A DNA stretch of 64,000 bases from Halorubrum salinum (GTDB lineage: Archaea; Halobacteriota; Halobacteria; Halobacteriales; Haloferacaceae), in contig NZ_JANHDO010000001.1 in the NCBI RefSeq assembly GCF_024494575.1, forward strand, positions 62,001 through 126,000, read 5' to 3'. The first letter of the stretch is position 1. Every line of letters begins with the position of its first letter. A program made the translations under genes and the position numbers. The notes under the pieces were generated by a model. The model was not told the DNA's origin, ran no database searches, and saw nothing but the letters and a program-made list of their open reading frames with translations. This document shows, in pieces, positions 34,899-44,536 of the stretch.

Positions 34899-35978
34899 CT
34901 ACCCGCCGCCGCCGGCGGTCCGTTGACGAGCGCGACGGCGCAGGACACCGACGTTGTTCGCGACGGCCCCCGTCAGGTCCCGAAACGCCGCGGCCGTCGC
35001 GCCGTCGCCCCGAGCCACGACCGGCTCGCCGTCCTCTGCTCCCGTTCGGATCGCCGGGTCGAGCGGCAGCGACCCGAGATACGGCACGTCGACTTCCTCG
35101 GCCAGCGATCGGCCGCCGTCTTCCCCGAAGACGTCGTGTGTGTCTCCGCAGCTCGGACAGACGAACCCGCTCATGTTCTCGACGACGCCGAGCACGTTGG
35201 TCCGGTACTCCCCGAACATCTGCACGCCGCGGCGGGTGTCGTCCACCGCGACTGACTGCGGCGTCGTGACGACGACCGTTCCCGTCACGGGGAGGTGTTG
35301 GAGCACCGTCAACTGGACGTCGCCGGTGCCCGGCGGGAGGTCGACGACGAGGTAATCGAGCGGCCCCCACGAGACGTCGCCGAAGAGGTCGGTGAGCGTG
35401 TTCTGTGCGACGGGACCGCGCCAGACGACGGGGTCGTCCTCGTCGATCAGCAACCCGACGCTCATCAGTTCGACCCCGTGAGCGGTCGGCGGTTCGATCC
35501 GGTCGTCACCGTCGACGGTCGCCACGCCGGGGTCCTCGTCGACCCCGAGCATCTGCGGGACGTTCGGGCCGTACACGTCGGCGTCGAACAGCCCCACGTT
35601 CGCTCCCCGGTCCGCCAACCCCGCGGCGAGGTTGACGGCGACGGTGCTCTTTCCGACCCCGCCCTTGCCGGAGGCGACGGCGATCACGTTTTTCACCTCG
35701 GGCAGTACCGAGGACTCTCCCGCGTCGAGACGCGGCACCGTCGCGGAGAGACGCGCGTCGAGTCCCGCCTCCTCGACCACCCCGCGAACGCGGTCTGCGA
35801 TCGTGGCTTCCTCCGGCGCGTGCGGCGCGCCGAGCGCGAGTTCGATCGACGCCGTCCCGTCGTCGACGGTGCTGTCGGTGACGAGCCCGGCGCTGACGAT
35901 GTCCGCGCCGAGCGCGGGATCGTCGACGGTGCGGAGGCGGTCGCGGAGGTCTGAATCGGTGATGTCTGTGGATGTCAT
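34899..35978 (-). CDS. Mrp/ApbC/Nbp35-type iron-sulfur cluster carrier ATPase
   Basis: A 359-residue P-loop protein that carries and delivers Fe-S clusters. The N-terminal about 80 residues form a MIP18/DUF59 domain ('ALGADIVSAGLVTDSTVDDG'). The deviant Walker A 'GKGGVGKST' is at 104-112, with 'LFDADVYGPNVPQMLG' and 'VVDLPPGTGDVQLTVLQ' typical of Mrp. The C-terminal cluster site CPSC is in 'ENMSGFVCPSCGDTHDVFGEDGG'. It is the last gene of the molybdoenzyme operon (11 nt after the TorD-like gene), which makes sense as the reductase carries about five Fe-S clusters. Haloarchaea have several Mrp paralogs; this one is probably dedicated to this operon. Confidence 0.9.
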   Translation of the reverse strand: MTSTDITDSDLRDRLRTVDDPALGADIVSAGLVTDSTVDDGTASIELALGAPHAPEEATIADRVRGVVEEAGLDARLSATVPRLDAGESSVLPEVKNVIAVASGKGGVGKSTVAVNLAAGLADRGANVGLFDADVYGPNVPQMLGVDEDPGVATVDGDDRIEPPTAHGVELMSVGLLIDEDDPVVWRGPVAQNTLTDLFGDVSWGPLDYLVVDLPPGTGDVQLTVLQHLPVTGTVVVTTPQSVAVDDTRRGVQMFGEYRTNVLGVVENMSGFVCPSCGDTHDVFGEDGGRSLAEEVDVPYLGSLPLDPAIRTGAEDGEPVVARGDGATAAAFRDLTGAVANNVGVLRRRARQRTAGGGG

Positions 35979-35989
35979 TGGTGAATCGG

Positions 35990-36778
35990 CTACGCGTGTT
36001 CGGTGTCCGACGGGCGGTCGTCCGACTGTGCTGCGACCTCGCTCGCGTCCCACGCGGCGAACGTCCGTGCGAGCCGCGCGATCCCGGCGAAGACGCCTTC
36101 GGCCGCGTCCTGTTCTGCGACCGCCTCGTCGAACCGGTCGAGCCACCCCAACCGGGAGAGCGTCTGCGCTTGGAGATCGCACACGGCGTCGACGGCCGGC
36201 TCGTCGCCGCCGTCTTCGAGGAGCGTCGCCTCGCGCTCACACAGCGCGCGCATGAACTCGAAGCACGCGGCCACGTGGTCTGGGATGCCGTCGCCTCGTC
36301 GGGGGGAAAACCCCGCGGCGGCGTACAACTGCGCCATGTCGGCGGCCGGGTCGCCGAGGAGTTCACCGGCCTCGCCTGCGGTGTGGTACCGCGAGTCCGA
36401 CTCGAACTCCTCGCTCGGTTCGGTCGCGTGGGCGGACGCGAACGGCGGAACGTAGTGGCTCCCGGGGACGACGAACAGGGTGTCGTACCCGACGGCGAGG
36501 GAGTCTGCGTCGTGGCCGTCTCCGTCCGGGATCGCCTGCTCGCCGTCGATCGGTAGCGCGTCGGCGACGGCCGCGAACGCGTCCCGCTCGAACGCCTCGG
36601 CGATCGCCTCCGTCTCGCCGTCGAACGCCGCCGCCAGCAGTCCGTACAGCCGAGCGCGAGCCGTCGCCAGCGCCGCTCCGTCCGGGCCGTCCGTGGCGTT
36701 CGCGTCGTCCGGATCGCCCGGATCGGTCGAATCGTTCGCGTCGTCCGGATCGGTCGCGTCGTTCGTGTGTGCGGACAT
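35990..36778 (-). CDS. TorD/DmsD/NarJ-type molybdoenzyme chaperone
   Basis: A 262-residue cytoplasmic chaperone that holds the molybdoenzyme catalytic subunit for cofactor insertion and Tat export. After a disordered N-terminus of about 35 residues very rich in Asp, Asn and Thr, the helical core shows 'ARARLYGLLAAAFDG' and 'YDTLFVVPGSHYVPPFASAHATEPSEEFE' (the PxxPPxES-type region of TorD) and 'HVAACFEFMRALCEREATLL'. It follows the catalytic subunit by 6 nt on the same strand. The family assignment is clear from motifs and context; the exact client is inferred. Confidence 0.9.
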   Translation of the reverse strand: MSAHTNDATDPDDANDSTDPGDPDDANATDGPDGAALATARARLYGLLAAAFDGETEAIAEAFERDAFAAVADALPIDGEQAIPDGDGHDADSLAVGYDTLFVVPGSHYVPPFASAHATEPSEEFESDSRYHTAGEAGELLGDPAADMAQLYAAAGFSPRRGDGIPDHVAACFEFMRALCEREATLLEDGGDEPAVDAVCDLQAQTLSRLGWLDRFDEAVAEQDAAEGVFAGIARLARTFAAWDASEVAAQSDDRPSDTEHA

Positions 36779-36784
36779 CTCAGA

Positions 36785-39700
36785 TCACCGCCGCTCCACG
36801 TCGACGAAGGCGTCGTACTGCGCGTTGCTCCCGCCGACGAGATCCGAGAGGCCGGTGTCGCCGAGCTCCTCGTCGAGCGGCTGGACGTGGTTGATCGCGA
36901 AGCCGGCGTCGCGCCCCTTCGCGTACCCCCCTTCCTCGGTCATCGGCTCGTCGAACTGGTAGTCGCTGTGCCCGTCTGCCTCGACAGCCTCCCGCGTCTC
37001 GCCGTCGATCGTCTCCGCCGTCGCTCCGTCGCCGGTCCGCCCCCAGCCCCACATCGCGCCGACGACGCCGGGGCGGATGCCGCTCGTGACCATCGCGACC
37101 GCGTCGACGGTCTCGCGTCCGGCGTCGAGGGCGATCTCGTCGCCGTTTTCGATCCCGCGCTCCTCGGCGTCTCGCGGGTTGATCCACACCGGATTCTCCG
37201 GGCGCGTCTCGCGGAGCCACGGGCTGTTCTGGGTGCGGTGCATCCCCTGTGTCCGCGGCTTCCAGTTTATCAGTCGCAGCGGGCGATCCCGATCGTCGTC
37301 GCCGCGCACCGCGGCCTGCACGGTGCCGTCGTAGTGCTCGACGTCGTCGACCTTCGGAAGGGGGTCGAACCGCTCGCCGGTGAACGAGTGTTTCCCGTTC
37401 GGCACGACCTCGCTGTAGAAGTCGACGCGCGACTCGAGTTTGTACCGCATGTGCTCGCCGTCGTAGGCGTTCGAATCGCGCGCTCGCTCGGCGTAGTCGT
37501 AGTCGTGTCCGTGTTCGCCGAACGCCTCGTCGTACTCCCCGGCCGGCTCCTCGAAGCGCCCGCCGCGGTTCAACACGGTGACGACCTTCGGCCACTCCTC
37601 GTCCGTGACCGCGGCCTTCCAGCGGTCGAGGTCGAACTGGTCGCCGAGGCCGTTCTCGTGACTTTCGCGGAACACCCGACGCTCGTCCGCGCTCGCGTCC
37701 GGGACCGGATCGCGGTCGTACGCGATGTTGGCGGCGAGCTTCACGTAGAAGTCCTCGGCCCGTTCGAGCGGCCACAGGTCGCCTTCGGCGTCAGCGATCG
37801 CGTCCTCGCCGACGCCGGGCAGACCGAGCTCCGACCACAGGTCTATCAGCACGTCTTCGAACGGACGCGCGTCGGGGACGACGGACACCGCCGGCTGGCT
37901 GATCTTCTCGTCTGCCAGCCGCTTGTTCGGGTACGTGCCGAAGTTCTCCCACCGTTCGAGGTAGGTCGGCTCGGGCAGGATGTAGTCGGCGTACTGGCTC
38001 GTCTCGCCGATGACCGTGTCCGAGGCGACAATAAGCGGGATCGTGTCGGTGTCTCTGAGGATCGCCGGGATCTCGTCGCCGCCGGCGACCGCCATCACGT
38101 GGTTGTTCGAGTACGGTCGGATGAAAAGCGCCTCGACGCCGTACGGGTACTCGTCGGCGGCGCTGCCGTAGAGTTCCTGGGTCGCCTGCGGCGGCGCGAC
38201 GGGGAACCACGGCCGCTTCGCCGGGTAGCCGTCGTCGCGCTCGAAAAGCGAGGTGTCCTCGTAGTTGATCCCCCCTCGGAGCAGCGGGATCCCCCACGGC
38301 GAGCGGCCGTCGGGCACCGACCCGAGATCGTATCGGCCCGACATCGTGTCATAGCCCGCGTACGGGGTGATCTGTCCGCCCTTCCAGTCGTAGTTGCCGA
38401 TGAGGTGCTGGAGGGTGGCGATCGCCCGCGTGTTGTAGAAGCCGTTCGTGTGCTTCGCCGGCCCGCGGTAGGCCATGATCGCGGCGCGCTTGCCGTGACT
38501 CGTGAACTCGTCTGCGATATCGGCGATCTGTTCGGCCGGCACGCCGGCCATCTCCGCGTACTCCTCGACGGTGTGCTCGAAGACGCGCTCGCGGTACTGG
38601 CTCCAGACGCTCCGCACCGCCGCGCCCTCGACGGTCACGTCCACGTCGAGGACGGCCGTGTCGACCTCGCTCGCGGGGCGGGGCTCGCCGGTGTCGGCGT
38701 CGATCACGACGAAGTCGTCCGCGGTGTCAGCGTTCTCGTCGACCAGCCCGAGGTCGCCGGCGCGCGCCTTCGGTCCCGCGTCCTCGTCGACGAGGACGAG
38801 GTGGGTCGCGTCGCTCCACGTCGGCTCGTCGTCGTCGCTCGCGGCCGACTGCGAGGGGTTCTGGAGGTACGTCAGGTCGTGGCGGTCGTTCTCGATGATC
38901 CATCGGGCCATCCCGAGCGCGAGCGCGCCGTCCGCGCCGGGCTCGACCGGCACCCACGTGTCGGCCTTCTCGGCGGTCTTCGACAGGCGCGGATCGATCA
39001 CGTCCATCCGCATCCCGTCTTCGATGGCGTTCGTCAGCTTCGGCGCGAGCCACGTCGGCCCCTTGTTCGCGACCATCGGATTGGTCCCCCACGCGATGAG
39101 GTACTCGCAGTTGTCGATGTCGGGGTACTGCCGCTTCTTTTGAGCCGCGTGCGACCGCACGTTACCCATCACGCTCGAGACGCCGCAGGTCCCGGCGTGG
39201 TGGACGCTGTTTATGGATCCGAGCCCCTGGTGCCAGAGCCGGTTCCGGATGAAGTTGCGGCGGAACCCGCCCACGTCGACGATCTGGTTCGACTTCGGTC
39301 CCAAGTCGGGGTGGTCGGTGTCGATGAGGTCCTCGGCGTACCGCTCGTCGAACGCCGACTTGGACAACTCGCCGTTCTGGACGGCCTCCCAGTCGCTCAT
39401 CACGTCCTCCTTCGGAGCGTACCCCCAGACGTCTTCGAGCCCGGGATGCCCCAGCTCGTCGTCGCCCTCGACGATATCTTGGATAGCCTGTTCCCACGAG
39501 ACCGTCTTCCACTCGCCCGACCCGCGCGGACCGACCCGCTTCATCGGCTTTCGAACCCGGTAGCTGTCGAAGGCCGTCTGAATGCCCGCCTGCCCCTTCA
39601 GGCAGATCCGACCCCCGGAGAGCGACCACCGATCGGTGTCGACGTCGCCGCTCCCCTCGACGTCGCCCATCGCCACGTCTTCCGGGTCGCTCCCGTAGGG

Positions 39701-40042
39701 GACCTGCGAGAACGGCTGAGTGTTGAGGAACGAGTACGGGTTCCCCGCCAGCTTCCGGACGAGCGAACTGTACTCGCCGGTGCCGCTCCCGTCGGCGAGT
39801 TGCACCTTGACCGGACAGAACGTGTTACACTGCCCGCAGGTGGTGTGGATCACGTCGCTCGCGTCGTACTCGCCGTACTCGTCGCCGACGTAGTGGTGCT
39901 CGTCGTCGGTCCACAGGTCGTCGACGTCCACGTCGACCGCGGCGTTGCTCGCCGCCGCGATGACGCCGATACTCCCGACCGCCTTGATCAAGTCCCGGCG
40001 CGAGACGGTCGCACCGTCTCCGTCGGAATCGTCTGCGCTCAT
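36785..40042 (-). CDS. Tat-exported molybdopterin oxidoreductase catalytic subunit (TtrA/ArrA/PsrA-like)
   Basis: A 1085-residue bis-MGD molybdenum enzyme. A twin-arginine signal SRRDLIKAVGSIGVIAA spans about 14-30. The N-terminal 4Fe-4S site has Cys69, Cys72, Cys76 and Cys147 ('TTCGQCNTFCPV', 'GGRICLKG'). The likely Mo ligand is Cys286 in 'HHAGTCGVSSVMGNVRSH', which points to the group that reduces tetrathionate, arsenate, polysulfide or thiosulfate rather than DMSO/TMAO (Ser) or formate (Sec). The dinucleotide-binding domains follow ('AWGTNPMVANKGPTW', 'MAYRGPAKHTNGFYN', 'VASDTVIGETSQYADYILPEPTYLERWEN') and a C-terminal molydopterin-dinucleotide fold ('WINPRDAEERGIENGDEI'). The start overlaps the preceding gene by 4 nt. 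Size and gene order B-C-A resemble bacterial ttrBCA, but the substrate is not resolved. Confidence 0.93.
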   Translation of the reverse strand: MSADDSDGDGATVSRRDLIKAVGSIGVIAAASNAAVDVDVDDLWTDDEHHYVGDEYGEYDASDVIHTTCGQCNTFCPVKVQLADGSGTGEYSSLVRKLAGNPYSFLNTQPFSQVPYGSDPEDVAMGDVEGSGDVDTDRWSLSGGRICLKGQAGIQTAFDSYRVRKPMKRVGPRGSGEWKTVSWEQAIQDIVEGDDELGHPGLEDVWGYAPKEDVMSDWEAVQNGELSKSAFDERYAEDLIDTDHPDLGPKSNQIVDVGGFRRNFIRNRLWHQGLGSINSVHHAGTCGVSSVMGNVRSHAAQKKRQYPDIDNCEYLIAWGTNPMVANKGPTWLAPKLTNAIEDGMRMDVIDPRLSKTAEKADTWVPVEPGADGALALGMARWIIENDRHDLTYLQNPSQSAASDDDEPTWSDATHLVLVDEDAGPKARAGDLGLVDENADTADDFVVIDADTGEPRPASEVDTAVLDVDVTVEGAAVRSVWSQYRERVFEHTVEEYAEMAGVPAEQIADIADEFTSHGKRAAIMAYRGPAKHTNGFYNTRAIATLQHLIGNYDWKGGQITPYAGYDTMSGRYDLGSVPDGRSPWGIPLLRGGINYEDTSLFERDDGYPAKRPWFPVAPPQATQELYGSAADEYPYGVEALFIRPYSNNHVMAVAGGDEIPAILRDTDTIPLIVASDTVIGETSQYADYILPEPTYLERWENFGTYPNKRLADEKISQPAVSVVPDARPFEDVLIDLWSELGLPGVGEDAIADAEGDLWPLERAEDFYVKLAANIAYDRDPVPDASADERRVFRESHENGLGDQFDLDRWKAAVTDEEWPKVVTVLNRGGRFEEPAGEYDEAFGEHGHDYDYAERARDSNAYDGEHMRYKLESRVDFYSEVVPNGKHSFTGERFDPLPKVDDVEHYDGTVQAAVRGDDDRDRPLRLINWKPRTQGMHRTQNSPWLRETRPENPVWINPRDAEERGIENGDEIALDAGRETVDAVAMVTSGIRPGVVGAMWGWGRTGDGATAETIDGETREAVEADGHSDYQFDEPMTEEGGYAKGRDAGFAINHVQPLDEELGDTGLSDLVGGSNAQYDAFVDVERR

Positions 40043-41310
40043 TCGTGGTCACCTCCAGAAAGCGGAGTCAGCGGAAGCGTCTCTGCACCGAGCGTGTACA
40101 ACAGCAGCCCGACGCCGATCATGCCGACGCTCGTCCCCCACTCGACGAGCGTCGGGAAGTACGAGCCGTGGGGGAGTCCCTCCATCACCGGCATGACCTG
40201 CGCCGGAACGACGATGTTGAACCGCACCGCGATGATTCCGATGACGACGCTCAGGCCGGCGATCACCATCACTCCCGGCGTGCGCCGCCACGATCGCTTG
40301 CTCAACAGGACCATCGGGAACACCCAACTGAATCCGACCATGAACCACCAGAACGACCACGACATCGGCCCGTACATGATGACGTTCCAGGTCTCGATCT
40401 CGTGGGGGTGGAGGCTGGCTATCGCGATGAACGTCTCGATGGCCGTCAGCGCCGCGTCGACGACGATGAAGCCGATCAGAAGCTGCGCGAGGCGATCGAG
40501 CAGATCCGGGTCGACCGCCTCGCCGTCGAACAGCCGGGTCCGGAGCACGTAGATCAACATCACCAAGGCGGTCCCGCTGAGAAGCGCCGAGATGACGAAG
40601 ATCACCGGGAACAGCCCGCTGTTCCAGTACGGTCGGGCCTTCGAGACGGCGAACAGCACGCCGGTCCCGCCGTGAACCATGAAGATGGCGAGCGGGATCC
40701 CGACGACGCCCGCCCGCTTGAGCCAGCGCCGATCGAACGCCCGTGACGCCTCGCTCGTGTCCAGCCGCCCGAGCGCGAGCGTCGCGTAGAACCGCTCTTT
40801 GAGCCCCGAAGTCCGATCCGCGACGCGCGCGAGGTCGATACGCATCGAGAAGTACAGCTCCGTGACCAGTATCGCGATGTACGCCACGTAGGCGTGGACC
40901 TCCCACGAGAGCGCGGAGGTCAGCTGACGCCAAATGAACGGGAAGTACATCCGGTCCATCCGCCCGAGGTCGATCCACACGAAGAGCAGCGCCACGGCCA
41001 TGCTGATGATCGCAGCGAACAGCGCGTCGCGGTCGATGCGGTGCATCCCCTCGACCTCGAAGACGTTGGCCATCGTGCTCACGAGGAACGCGCCGGCCGA
41101 GAGGCCGACGAAGTAGATGTAGAAGGCGACCCACGCCCCCCACGGCACGATGCTCGTGAGGTTGGTGCTCGCCATCCCCCCCGTGATCCGGAGGTACGTC
41201 GCGTACGCGCCGACGGCGACGAGCGCGGCGACGAAGGCGTACCACGCCACGCGGAGTCGTCCGTCCTCGAAGCCCGGATCGAAGTCGAATCGCGTGTGTT
41301 GTGTCGCCAT
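40039..41310 (-). CDS. NrfD/PsrC-type membrane anchor subunit
   Basis: A 423-residue integral membrane protein with about nine or ten predicted helices, the quinol-oxidising anchor for this reductase. The N-terminus is a cytoplasmic acidic segment, then 'YAFVAALVAVGAYATYL' as the first helix. A conserved segment 'PWGAWVAFYIYFVGLSAGAFLVSTMANV' resembles the quinone-binding part of the NrfD family, and 'WSFWWFMVGFSWVFPMVLL' is a later helix. It lacks cofactor-ligating histidines in the pattern of a diheme cytochrome, which fits NrfD rather than NarI/PhsC. It lies 4 nt after the FeS subunit and overlaps the catalytic gene by 4 nt. Confidence 0.9.
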   Translation of the reverse strand: MATQHTRFDFDPGFEDGRLRVAWYAFVAALVAVGAYATYLRITGGMASTNLTSIVPWGAWVAFYIYFVGLSAGAFLVSTMANVFEVEGMHRIDRDALFAAIISMAVALLFVWIDLGRMDRMYFPFIWRQLTSALSWEVHAYVAYIAILVTELYFSMRIDLARVADRTSGLKERFYATLALGRLDTSEASRAFDRRWLKRAGVVGIPLAIFMVHGGTGVLFAVSKARPYWNSGLFPVIFVISALLSGTALVMLIYVLRTRLFDGEAVDPDLLDRLAQLLIGFIVVDAALTAIETFIAIASLHPHEIETWNVIMYGPMSWSFWWFMVGFSWVFPMVLLSKRSWRRTPGVMVIAGLSVVIGIIAVRFNIVVPAQVMPVMEGLPHGSYFPTLVEWGTSVGMIGVGLLLYTLGAETLPLTPLSGGDHE

Positions 41311-41314
41311 CGTC

Positions 41315-42358
41315 CTACTTGAGGTAGTAGACGTTGGGGTCCGTCCCCTCGTCTTCTTTCAGTTGGAACGCGCGGGAGGAGTCGGCCATCTTCGCGACCT
41401 CGCTTTCGGGGTTATCGAGGTCTCCCATGTTCCGCGCGTCGCCGATACAGGTCTCGACGCAGGCCGGTTCCTCGCCGCGCTCTAAGCGATGCGTACAGAA
41501 GCTGCACTTACGGATGTTGCCGATCGGCGATTCACCCTCTTCTCGCGGCCCCCGATCGACGCCGTACTCGGGGCTCGTCACTTCGCCCGCCCCGTCGACT
41601 TCGTCGTCGTAGTTCTCGCCGAAGTCGAAGTACCGCGCGCCGTACGGACAGGCGATGTTGCAGTACCGGCAGCCGATACACCGGTCGTAGTCGATGTTGA
41701 CCACGCCGTCGTCCATCTTGTACGTCGCCGAGACCGGACACACCTGCACGCACGGCGGGTTGTCACACTGCATGCACGGGCGCGGAACGTTCGTGCGCGT
41801 GACGTTCGGGAACTCGCCGTGTTCCTCCTCCATCACGACGTTGTACGACACGCCCGGCGGGGTCCGGTTCTCGGACTTGCACGCGACCGTACACGAGTCA
41901 CAGCCGACGCACTTCTGGAGGTCTATCACCATCCCCCACGTCTCGTCGCCCGCGCCGATCCCGCCGCCCGCGTCGCCTCTCCCCTCGCCGTCGACCTGCG
42001 CCGACTCCGTCGACACGGTGTCCATCGAGCCGACGGCACAGCTCAGCGACTCGGCCGTCTCCGTCGAGACGGTCTGGTCGCCGGCGTCGACCGCCGGGTT
42101 CGGCGTCTCTCGGTACGCCTCGCCGAACTCGTCCGCGGCCGCCTCGTCGTACTTCTCCCAGTACTCGTCGCCGGTGATCTCTCCCCGGGCGACGCGCTTC
42201 GCGTCCTCGGCCATCGCGACACCGAGGTCCGTGTCCGCCTCGACGTCCGCGAGCTCCTCTCTCGGATCGGGCCGTTCGTCCTCCACCATCGCGTCGAGGT
42301 CCGCCTTCCCGACGTCCGGAACACCGGGGAAGACGTCCCCGTCGTCTGCGGTACTCAT
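41315..42358 (-). CDS. Four-cluster ferredoxin-type electron transfer subunit (TtrB/DmsB-like) with N-terminal extension
   Basis: The 347-residue subunit passes electrons between the membrane anchor and the catalytic subunit. It carries 16 cysteines in four 4Fe-4S groups: 150/153/156/160, 195/198/203/207, 227/230/233/237 and 285/288/300/304. The domain begins after a long acidic extension of about 140 residues (with a helical, charged 'AEDAKRVARGEITGDEYWEKYDEAAADEFG') not found in bacterial DmsB/TtrB and without a Tat signal. This subunit may travel with the Tat-carrying catalytic subunit. It is the first gene of the operon, ATG 42356-42358, with the divergent regulatory region just upstream. 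Confidence 0.92.
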   Translation of the reverse strand: MSTADDGDVFPGVPDVGKADLDAMVEDERPDPREELADVEADTDLGVAMAEDAKRVARGEITGDEYWEKYDEAAADEFGEAYRETPNPAVDAGDQTVSTETAESLSCAVGSMDTVSTESAQVDGEGRGDAGGGIGAGDETWGMVIDLQKCVGCDSCTVACKSENRTPPGVSYNVVMEEEHGEFPNVTRTNVPRPCMQCDNPPCVQVCPVSATYKMDDGVVNIDYDRCIGCRYCNIACPYGARYFDFGENYDDEVDGAGEVTSPEYGVDRGPREEGESPIGNIRKCSFCTHRLERGEEPACVETCIGDARNMGDLDNPESEVAKMADSSRAFQLKEDEGTDPNVYYLK

Positions 42359-42462
42359 CGCCACCACCCGTGACCGCTCGTCGCGCCGGCGGACGGTCGA
42401 TCCGGCCGGTCGGTTCTGGCGTTCATACACGTATACGTACGCAGACACCGGTGGAAAGGGTG

Positions 42463-42532
42463 GTACCAATACTGTTTGATCCGGGCCGTCTCCCGGAATA
42501 CGCCCCATATTGCGGGTACCAATACTGTTTGG
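42463..42532. repeat. Pair of 17-bp direct repeats in the divergent promoter region
   Basis: GGTACCAATACTGTTTG occurs at 42463-42479 and again, identical, at 42516-42532. The start-to-start distance is 53 bp, about five helical turns, so both copies face the same side of the DNA. Each contains CCAA-TACTGT-TTG(G/A), a nearly symmetric core, in unusually AT-rich sequence. They lie between the reductase operon (start 42358) and the Bat-like regulator (start 42698) and are the best candidates for its operators. Confidence 0.8.
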
Positions 42533-42697
42533 ATCGGGGATGTCGGACGCGCCACGCGCGGCGAGGGGACGCGCGCGCCAACCACGGCTGTTATCTGCGA
42601 GAACAGGAAAGACGTCGGACATGAACGGGCTGTGCCAAGCCGAGCGGTCGGTCGCTCCGGCCGGACCCGCCGACCGCCTGACGCCGACACGGATCAC

Positions 42698-44536
42698 ATG
42701 AACTGGATCATCGCCTCCTCTATCGTCCTGCGGCTTCTCGGCGTCGGGTACTCGGTCCTGCTCCTCGTCCGAACCCGCGACCGCCGGTTCGGGTTCCTGA
42801 CGCTGCTCCTGTCCTTCATGACGCTTCGCCAACTTCTCACGGTCCAGACGGCGACCACCGGGGTCGAGGAACTCCCCGGTCTCGTCGTGAGCGTGCTCAC
42901 CCTGATCACGGTGTACTACCTCTCCGAGTACGTCGACGAGGAGGCCGCGATCAAAGCGCAACTTCAGTCGGCCAACGACCGCCTCCGGAGCTTTCGCAAG
43001 GCGATCGAACACGCCGGACACGCGATCTTCCTCACCGATCCGGACGGGACCATCGAGTACGCGAACCCGGCCGTCGAGACGGTCACCGGGTACGAGCCGG
43101 ACGAGGTGGTCGGCGAGAACCCGCGGCTCTGGCAGTCGGGCGAACACGACGAGGCGTTCTACGCTGGGCTCTGGGAGCAGATCGAGTCAGGATCGGTCTG
43201 GGAGGGTGAGCTGACGAACCGCCGGAAGTCGGGAGAGCTCTGCTGGATCGACGCGACGATCGCCCCGATCACAGAAGGCGGTGACGTCGAGCGCTACGTC
43301 GCGATAGAGCGCGACGTCACGGAGCGGAAGGAACGCGAGATGCACATCGAGGAGCAAAACGAGCGGCTGACGCTTCTGAACAACACGAACGCGATGCTTC
43401 GAGACGTCAACCGCGAACTCGTCTCCGCGTCGACCCGGGAGGAGATCGAGTCCGCGGTGTGCACGCAGTTCGCTTCCTCGGACCTCTTCGACGCGGCGTG
43501 GATCGGCACTCGGGGCCTCGTCGACGACACGGTGGCCCCGCGCTCGCGGGCCGGCATCGACGCCGACGCGGTCGACCGTCACATCGAGACGCTGTGTGCC
43601 GCCGATCCAACCCCGATCACGGAGGCGTTAGACGGGGAAACGACCGTCGTCGCCGACGTCGAAAGCGACGCGGAGGCCGCCGAGACGCGGAGCGTCGTCG
43701 TCCCGCTCGCGTACCGCGGCGCGGAGTACGGCGTCCTCGTCGTGGTGACGCGGGATCAGAGCGCGTTCGACCTGCTCGAAGACCCCCTCTTCGCGGAGCT
43801 CGGCAGCACCGTCGCGGACGCGATAAGCGCCGTCGAGAGCAAGCAGACGCTCGCCGCGGACAGCGTGACCGAACTGGAGTTCCAGTTGCGGGGCATCGAC
43901 GAGCCGCTGGCGACCATGGCGGCACGGCTCGACTGCACCGTCACGGTCGAGCACGTCGGCGGCACCCGCGACGGCACCCACGTCCAGTACGTCACCGTCG
44001 ACGCCGATCCGGACGCCGTCGCCGCACACACCGACGAGTCGGCTCACGTCGAGACCACACAGCACGTGTACAGCTACGAGGACCGGTCGCTGTTCCGGCT
44101 CGCCGTCGACGAGCGATCGATCGTCGCGACGCTGGCGCAGTACGGAGCCGAGATCGGAACGCTCTCGATCAGCGGGTCGAGCGGACAGCTGATCGCACGC
44201 GTCGCCAGTTCGAACGATATCCGAACCGTCGTCAACGCGCTCCGGACGGCGTACGACGACCTGACGCTCGTCGCACAGCGCGAGCGCGACCGAGACGTCC
44301 GGACCGAGGCCGGCTTCCGGAAGCAGTTGGCCGCGGCGCTGACGGACCGACAGCGCGAGGCGGCACGCACCGCGTACTTCGCGGGCTTTTTCGACTGGCC
44401 CCGCGAGCACACCGGCGAGGAGGTCGCGTCGATGATGGACATCTCACAGACGACGTTCACCCAGCACCTGCGCGCAGCCGAAAACAAGCTCTTCGCCGCG
44501 CTGTTCGACGACGCGACGACCGGCGAGGCGGGGTGA
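42698..44536 (+). CDS. Membrane-anchored Bat/DmsR-type transcription regulator (PAS, GAF-like, HTH-10)
   Basis: A 612-residue regulator, ATG 42698. Three hydrophobic segments (about 4-25, 33-48, 60-78) anchor the N-terminus. A PAS domain spans about 98-212 ('AIEHAGHAIFLTDPDGTIEYANPAVETVTGYEPDEV...RYVAIERDVTERK'), followed by a coiled coil and a GAF-like domain (about 236-380). A bacterioopsin-activator-type domain leads to a C-terminal HTH-10 (about 545-612) with 'LTDRQREAARTAYFAGFFDWPREHTGEEVASMMDISQTTFTQHLRAAENKL'. The Halobacterium DMSO reductase operon is controlled by a related DmsR, so this gene probably controls the divergent reductase operon. The sensed signal is unknown; the membrane anchor suggests a membrane or redox signal. 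Confidence 0.9.
   Translation: MNWIIASSIVLRLLGVGYSVLLLVRTRDRRFGFLTLLLSFMTLRQLLTVQTATTGVEELPGLVVSVLTLITVYYLSEYVDEEAAIKAQLQSANDRLRSFRKAIEHAGHAIFLTDPDGTIEYANPAVETVTGYEPDEVVGENPRLWQSGEHDEAFYAGLWEQIESGSVWEGELTNRRKSGELCWIDATIAPITEGGDVERYVAIERDVTERKEREMHIEEQNERLTLLNNTNAMLRDVNRELVSASTREEIESAVCTQFASSDLFDAAWIGTRGLVDDTVAPRSRAGIDADAVDRHIETLCAADPTPITEALDGETTVVADVESDAEAAETRSVVVPLAYRGAEYGVLVVVTRDQSAFDLLEDPLFAELGSTVADAISAVESKQTLAADSVTELEFQLRGIDEPLATMAARLDCTVTVEHVGGTRDGTHVQYVTVDADPDAVAAHTDESAHVETTQHVYSYEDRSLFRLAVDERSIVATLAQYGAEIGTLSISGSSGQLIARVASSNDIRTVVNALRTAYDDLTLVAQRERDRDVRTEAGFRKQLAAALTDRQREAARTAYFAGFFDWPREHTGEEVASMMDISQTTFTQHLRAAENKLFAALFDDATTGEAG

Follow-up and report, generated by a model that had tools for sequence, protein, structure and literature searches.

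The window, i.e. the whole 64-kb stretch of Halorubrum salinum DNA analysed here, holds a molybdoreductase operon on the minus strand and, divergent from it, a regulator gene on the plus strand. The starts of the 4Fe-4S gene and the regulator are 339 bp apart (42359–42697; annotated-type starts), where an earlier sequence-only reading had given an intergenic gap of 340 bp, and the gap is not empty, with one micro-ORF on each side. The features are, in order of position:

34899–35978, minus strand: ApbC/Mrp-type Fe-S carrier ATPase, the probable last operon gene; same order in Halorubrum sp. BOL3-1
35990–36778, minus strand: TorD/NarJ-like chaperone, by family search
36785–40042, minus strand: molybdopterin catalytic subunit; scores highest in NCBIfam against TtrA (402 bits, below the cutoff of 1750)
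40039–41310, minus strand: NrfD/PsrC-type membrane anchor (Pfam NrfD)
41315–42358, minus strand: 4Fe-4S subunit, B-type (Pfam Ferredoxin_N and Fer4_11)
42355–42426, minus strand: operon micro-ORF, MNARTDRPDRPSAGATSGHGWWR followed by a stop that overlaps the 4Fe-4S start (ATGA); its ATG is the predicted leaderless transcript start
42452–42461, minus strand: core element, here ACCCTTTCCA, at −35 to −26 of the micro-ORF ATG (anchored alignment, 31 loci)
42464–42479, plus strand: putative operator O1, operon-proximal, TACCAATACTGTTTGA; 14-bp dyad at 42466–42479; kept in 45 loci
42517–42532, plus strand: putative operator O2, operon-distal, TACCAATACTGTTTGG; 14-bp dyad at 42519–42532; nearly invariant in ten Halorubrum loci
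42591–42594, plus strand: TATA-like box of the regulator promoter, TTAT, 27–30 bp before the regulator micro-ORF; aligned in 24 representative loci
42621–42701, plus strand: regulator micro-ORF, MNGLCQAERSVAPAGPADRLTPTRIT followed by a stop, 26 codons; ATGA overlap with the regulator
42698–44536, plus strand: regulator, 612 amino acids, with N-terminal hydrophobic segments, PAS, GAF, BAT and HTH_10

The gene set B-C-A-chaperone of the operon is of the CISM type. The catalytic subunit stays below the curated NCBIfam cutoffs (402 versus 1750 bits for TtrA and 216 versus 694 bits for PhsA), and its nearest PDB entries are 2vpw ('thiosulfate reductase') and ArrA. From the TtrA-nearest score and these structural neighbours, we take the operon to encode a Ttr/Psr-like 4Fe-4S/NrfD/MopB complex; the same neighbours led us to reject a haloarchaeal Nar-like DMSO reductase under DmsR control.

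The regulator belongs to the Bat/HTH_10 family, with a C-terminal HTH_10 domain (PF04967, 5.6e-20) preceded by BAT (PF15915, 2.5e-38); both hits exceed the gathering score. In addition, it has a PAS domain (PAS_9, 3.8e-21) and a GAF domain below the cutoff (GAF_2, 1.4e-5), with DmsR_N also below the cutoff. Of the 'Bat/DmsR-type' label first given to this protein, the HTH_10 and BAT part stands and the DmsR part does not: PAS, GAF and an N-terminal hydrophobic region are present, and DmsR and NarO are without PAS and GAF (PMC11218638), so that orthology to DmsR was rejected. The nearest solved relatives of the PAS domain are those of MmoS and NifL (3ewk, 4e-37; 2gj3, 6e-20), and these closest relatives, together with a shared W-x-G-x3-N-R-x-K stretch, were our criterion for an FAD-binding redox PAS. 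The PAS domains of MmoS and NifL are FAD redox sensors. The first 80 residues (42698–42940) contain three hydrophobic segments, which suggests a membrane-anchored transcription factor, and the two features combined make a membrane-linked redox signal plausible.

Two mismatch-free copies of the 17-mer GGTACCAATACTGTTTG lie on the plus strand at 42462–42478 and 42515–42531. The two identical repeats reported earlier are thus real and, as stated, start 53 bp apart, whereas the coordinates (42463 onward) had been shifted by +1, the true start being 42462. The core CCAA-N6-TTGG is indeed exact in copy 2 (42519–42532); copy 1 reads CCAA-N6-TTGA (42466–42479). No other match to the 17-mer with up to three mismatches occurs in the 64 kb (0 expected, 100 shuffles), nor does a third copy with up to two mismatches in the 2.73-Mb genome. 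Among ten Halorubrum loci, all 16 columns of the distal site (42516–42531) are invariant, versus 105 of the 307 in the remaining intergenic region.

The sample for comparison comprised 45 intergenic regions from about 43 genomes of at least five families. In 45 of 45 loci with a divergent regulator and 4Fe-4S/NrfD/molybdopterin operon, an imperfect 14-bp palindrome occurs two or more times in the same orientation; these counts are not independent because the loci share ancestry. The palindrome has the consensus CC[AG]ATACTGTTTGG, and position counts over 79 sites give TACC[A/G]ATACTGTTTGG with C4, A6, T7, A8 and G15 invariant. The proposal that the 17-mer is an operator therefore holds for the site and fails for the unit: the symmetry extends over 14 bp (6-2-6) and leaves out GGTA, which is a less conserved edge, and the 17-mer as the unit was rejected. 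The exact 17-mer is a Halorubrum-level form of a broader motif. Half-sites as for a dimer had been proposed, and the 14-bp palindrome bears this out, though the dyad is weak in most lineages (8 of 14 consensus positions symmetric). A family with genomes of about 2 Mb has a near-perfect dyad at the distal site, CCAATAGGTATTGG (CCAATA-N2-TATTGG), with 12 of 14 positions. In most lineages the right half has diverged more than the left, which, given the weak dyad, makes asymmetric binding possible; the right half is degenerate in some proximal sites of Halorubrum relatives. Inspection by eye found no compensatory changes between the two half-sites.

The spacing between sites takes only the values 42, 51, 52 and 53 bp in the 45 loci, corresponding to four or five helical turns. 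The 42-bp spacing is found in Halohasta, in genus g63 and in genome G190, whereas other members of each of these three separate families have 51–53 bp. Recurrent changes by a single helical turn are expected if both sites are bound on the same face; unconstrained drift would give other values. This strengthens the earlier suggestion that 53 bp, about five turns, places both sites on one face. The Halohasta intergenic region (L082, L103) has three sites in successive steps of exactly 42 bp.

The sites track the regulator. Within the genus, the 4Fe-4S gene is present at more than 90% identity in 10 of 52 genomes, and the regulator adjoins it in all ten. Across the order, a 4Fe-4S ortholog (E ≤ 1e-130) occurs in 39 of 392 genomes, with the regulator in all except G043; the motif lies upstream of every ortholog operon with the regulator that we examined, and no pair was found to keep the regulator and lack the motif. 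A degenerate tandem two-site pattern matched 32 of the 392 genomes (reversed control, 0), comprising 28 of the 38 with the regulator–operon pair versus 4 of the 354 others. The remaining 10 pair genomes have site variants that fall outside the strict tandem pattern. One of the four matching genomes without the pair is G175, through a decaying second promoter; the matches in the other three (G122, G229 and G332) are away from the operon and look like chance. G043, with a 4Fe-4S ortholog and no regulator, has no site at up to four mismatches in 4.1 kb. Divergent from its ortholog (60%) is a gene for an Lrp/AsnC-like protein whose C-terminus is rich in cysteine (L168 1764–2369 and 2706–3767).

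The distance from the proximal site to the annotated 4Fe-4S start is variable (63 to 126 bp), whereas the site ends 37 bp (36–38) before the micro-ORF ATG in all families. The operon micro-ORF has 13–25 codons across loci and its end overlaps the 4Fe-4S start, mostly as ATGA; on the regulator side, counterparts occur in most families. ATGA-overlapping micro-ORFs of 12–30 codons are present on 46 of 62 promoter sides versus 6.3 expected from shuffles, and are absent from the annotation tables of two RefSeq relatives. We note that micro-ORFs head both divergent transcripts, with position kept across families and sequence not. In Haloferax, most transcripts are leaderless (PMC3986360), and in haloarchaea translation is coupled by overlapping stop/start pairs (PMC6728339). 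In accordance with both observations, the operon transcript is probably leaderless and would start at the micro-ORF ATG (42426).

No TATA box is present on the operon side at −35 to −26, where AT content and AT runs (1–3, versus 3–9 on the regulator side) were compared. The position is occupied by the core element (for short, ACGCTC or ACCCTTTCC), which in most other genera reads ACGCTCWSCC; from the alignment, this ACGCTC-type element appears to take the place of the TATA box. A separate TATA promoter with the same micro-ORF design serves the regulator, so that basal expression without activation is expected. Autorepression by a distal site that blocks the regulator start was considered, since AT-rich stretches lie between the sites, and was judged unlikely, because the regulator micro-ORF and TATA-like box place the start about 90 bp further downstream.

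In two genomes, G017 and G254, the entire promoter is present again about 3.6 kb off (L171 6210–6276 and L170 5590–5657, respectively), with two sites at a spacing of 51–52 bp, the ACGCTC element and a distance of 37 bp to the ATG. Behind it are a Ferredoxin_N remnant (4Fe-4S N-terminus), a Mo-binding-type protein and a MobA-like gene, names assigned by reading the sequences and not by family search. The presence of molybdenum-cofactor genes behind copies of these sites is consistent with a regulon that serves the molybdoreductase; in these two genomes the regulon may have grown by promoter duplication. In G175, a decaying promoter copy lies beside decayed ORFs (L169 5954–6021), and neither the operon nor the regulator was found in this genome. 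A large regulon was rejected: the tandem pattern occurs once per genome, plus the duplications in G017 and G254 and the remnant in G175.

The divergent position beside an HTH_10 gene, pointed out at the start, is confirmed, and the repeats are very probably docking sites of the adjacent regulator. In the mechanism we propose, each 14-bp imperfect palindrome would be bound by one HTH_10 dimer, and two dimers would occupy the same DNA face. Since the proximal site abuts the TATA-less core and ends 37 bp before the predicted start, the regulator bound there would most likely recruit or stabilise TBP/TFB/RNA polymerase, and would turn on the Ttr/Psr-like molybdoreductase operon when redox conditions suit. 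Termination of the micro-ORF at the ATGA would then couple translation to the 4Fe-4S gene. We are confident, without being certain, that the two sites are operators for the divergent PAS-GAF-BAT-HTH_10 regulator and drive an activator-dependent leaderless promoter of the molybdoreductase. A more specific version, towards which we are tentative and lean slightly to the sceptical side, would make this a distinct haloarchaeal promoter class, in which a TATA-less ACGCTCWSCC core works only with a phased HTH_10 pair, the leaderless micro-ORF serves mainly to load ribosomes for ATGA coupling, and the activator is a membrane-anchored redox sensor.

The same contact between proximal site and core promoter would also suit a repressor, in which case the bound HTH_10 protein could block access of TFB/TBP to the operon core until a signal relieves it. 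We regard this as unlikely: a TATA-less promoter fits activator dependence, the proximal site lies outside the core, with its end 37 bp ahead of the predicted start, and Bat and DmsR, relatives described in the literature, act as activators (PMC1447603). Less likely again is binding by another factor, such as a dedicated TFB/TBP variant or a global anaerobic regulator, instead of the adjacent HTH_10 protein. The ACGCTC element and the adjoining site could form one unusual promoter unit for such a factor, but the distal-site spacing varies (42/52 bp), which is ill-suited to one rigid unit; in addition, the tandem sites track the regulator–operon pair and are missing from the ortholog operon that has no regulator, and they form no wider regulon, being confined to a single location per genome apart from rare duplications of the promoter. 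Finally, the identity of the two copies in this genome, and nothing more, would be accounted for by chance or by recent duplication of neutral sequence. With zero copies expected by shuffling and a fixed arrangement kept in at least five families, this explanation has a negligible probability, and a chance repeat was rejected by the shuffles, the genome search and the 392-genome pattern search.

HTH_10/Bat-type relatives are present in every searched genome of the genus; to our knowledge, such regulators are numerous in haloarchaea and few have a known binding site. Here, natural variation across families yields a motif, a dyad, a helical-turn spacing rule and a fixed promoter distance, all directly testable. 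The arrangement also predicts transcript starts, exposes conserved micro-ORFs that annotation has missed on both sides, suggests an activator-dependent archaeal promoter with a GC-rich element instead of a TATA box, and connects the regulator with a respiratory molybdoenzyme distributed across haloarchaea. A limited literature search, with the key Bat and NarO papers outside its scope, found no published description of the present operator, and the literature examined reports no operator, promoter architecture or micro-ORF for Psr/Ttr operons.

Among known systems, the bop UAS is a CC...GG dyad of similar size directly upstream of the TATA region. Mutagenesis located the UAS 5′ to bop in Halobacterium, and near crtB1 and brp as well (PMC1447603). 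Like the system described here, Bat/bop combines an HTH_10 regulator having PAS/GAF with an upstream element next to a promoter whose core elements are unusual (PMC1447603). In position the two elements are comparable (the present site ends 37 bp before the predicted start), whereas the enzyme and the motif letters are different and here one promoter has two phased copies. DmsR and NarO, haloarchaeal regulators of DMSO and nitrate respiration, share with the present regulator the Bat-like HTH_10 domain and a gene beside a molybdoenzyme operon, which in their case they control (PMC10062603, PMC11218638). A 12-bp semi-palindromic motif, CGAAYATDKTYG, has been reported in denitrification promoters (PMC10062603, PMC11218638), with letters other than those of the present motif, while the present operon is Ttr/Psr-like; the NarO-type motif is absent from the intergenic region at up to one mismatch and matches the 64-kb window at chance level. 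The operon itself resembles the Psr/Ttr operons of sulfur-respiring haloarchaea in its 4Fe-4S, NrfD/PsrC-type, molybdopterin and chaperone set, and natronoarchaeal Psr operons include bacterioopsin-activator-family genes (PMC6176080). Compared with known ATGA coupling, the upstream member here is a 13–25-codon ORF of variable sequence that heads both divergent transcripts at a position kept across families. In sum, the predicted system would differ from bop UAS/Bat and the NarO-linked motif in its letters, its phased pair of sites, the conserved element in place of a TATA box, and the micro-ORFs on both transcripts.
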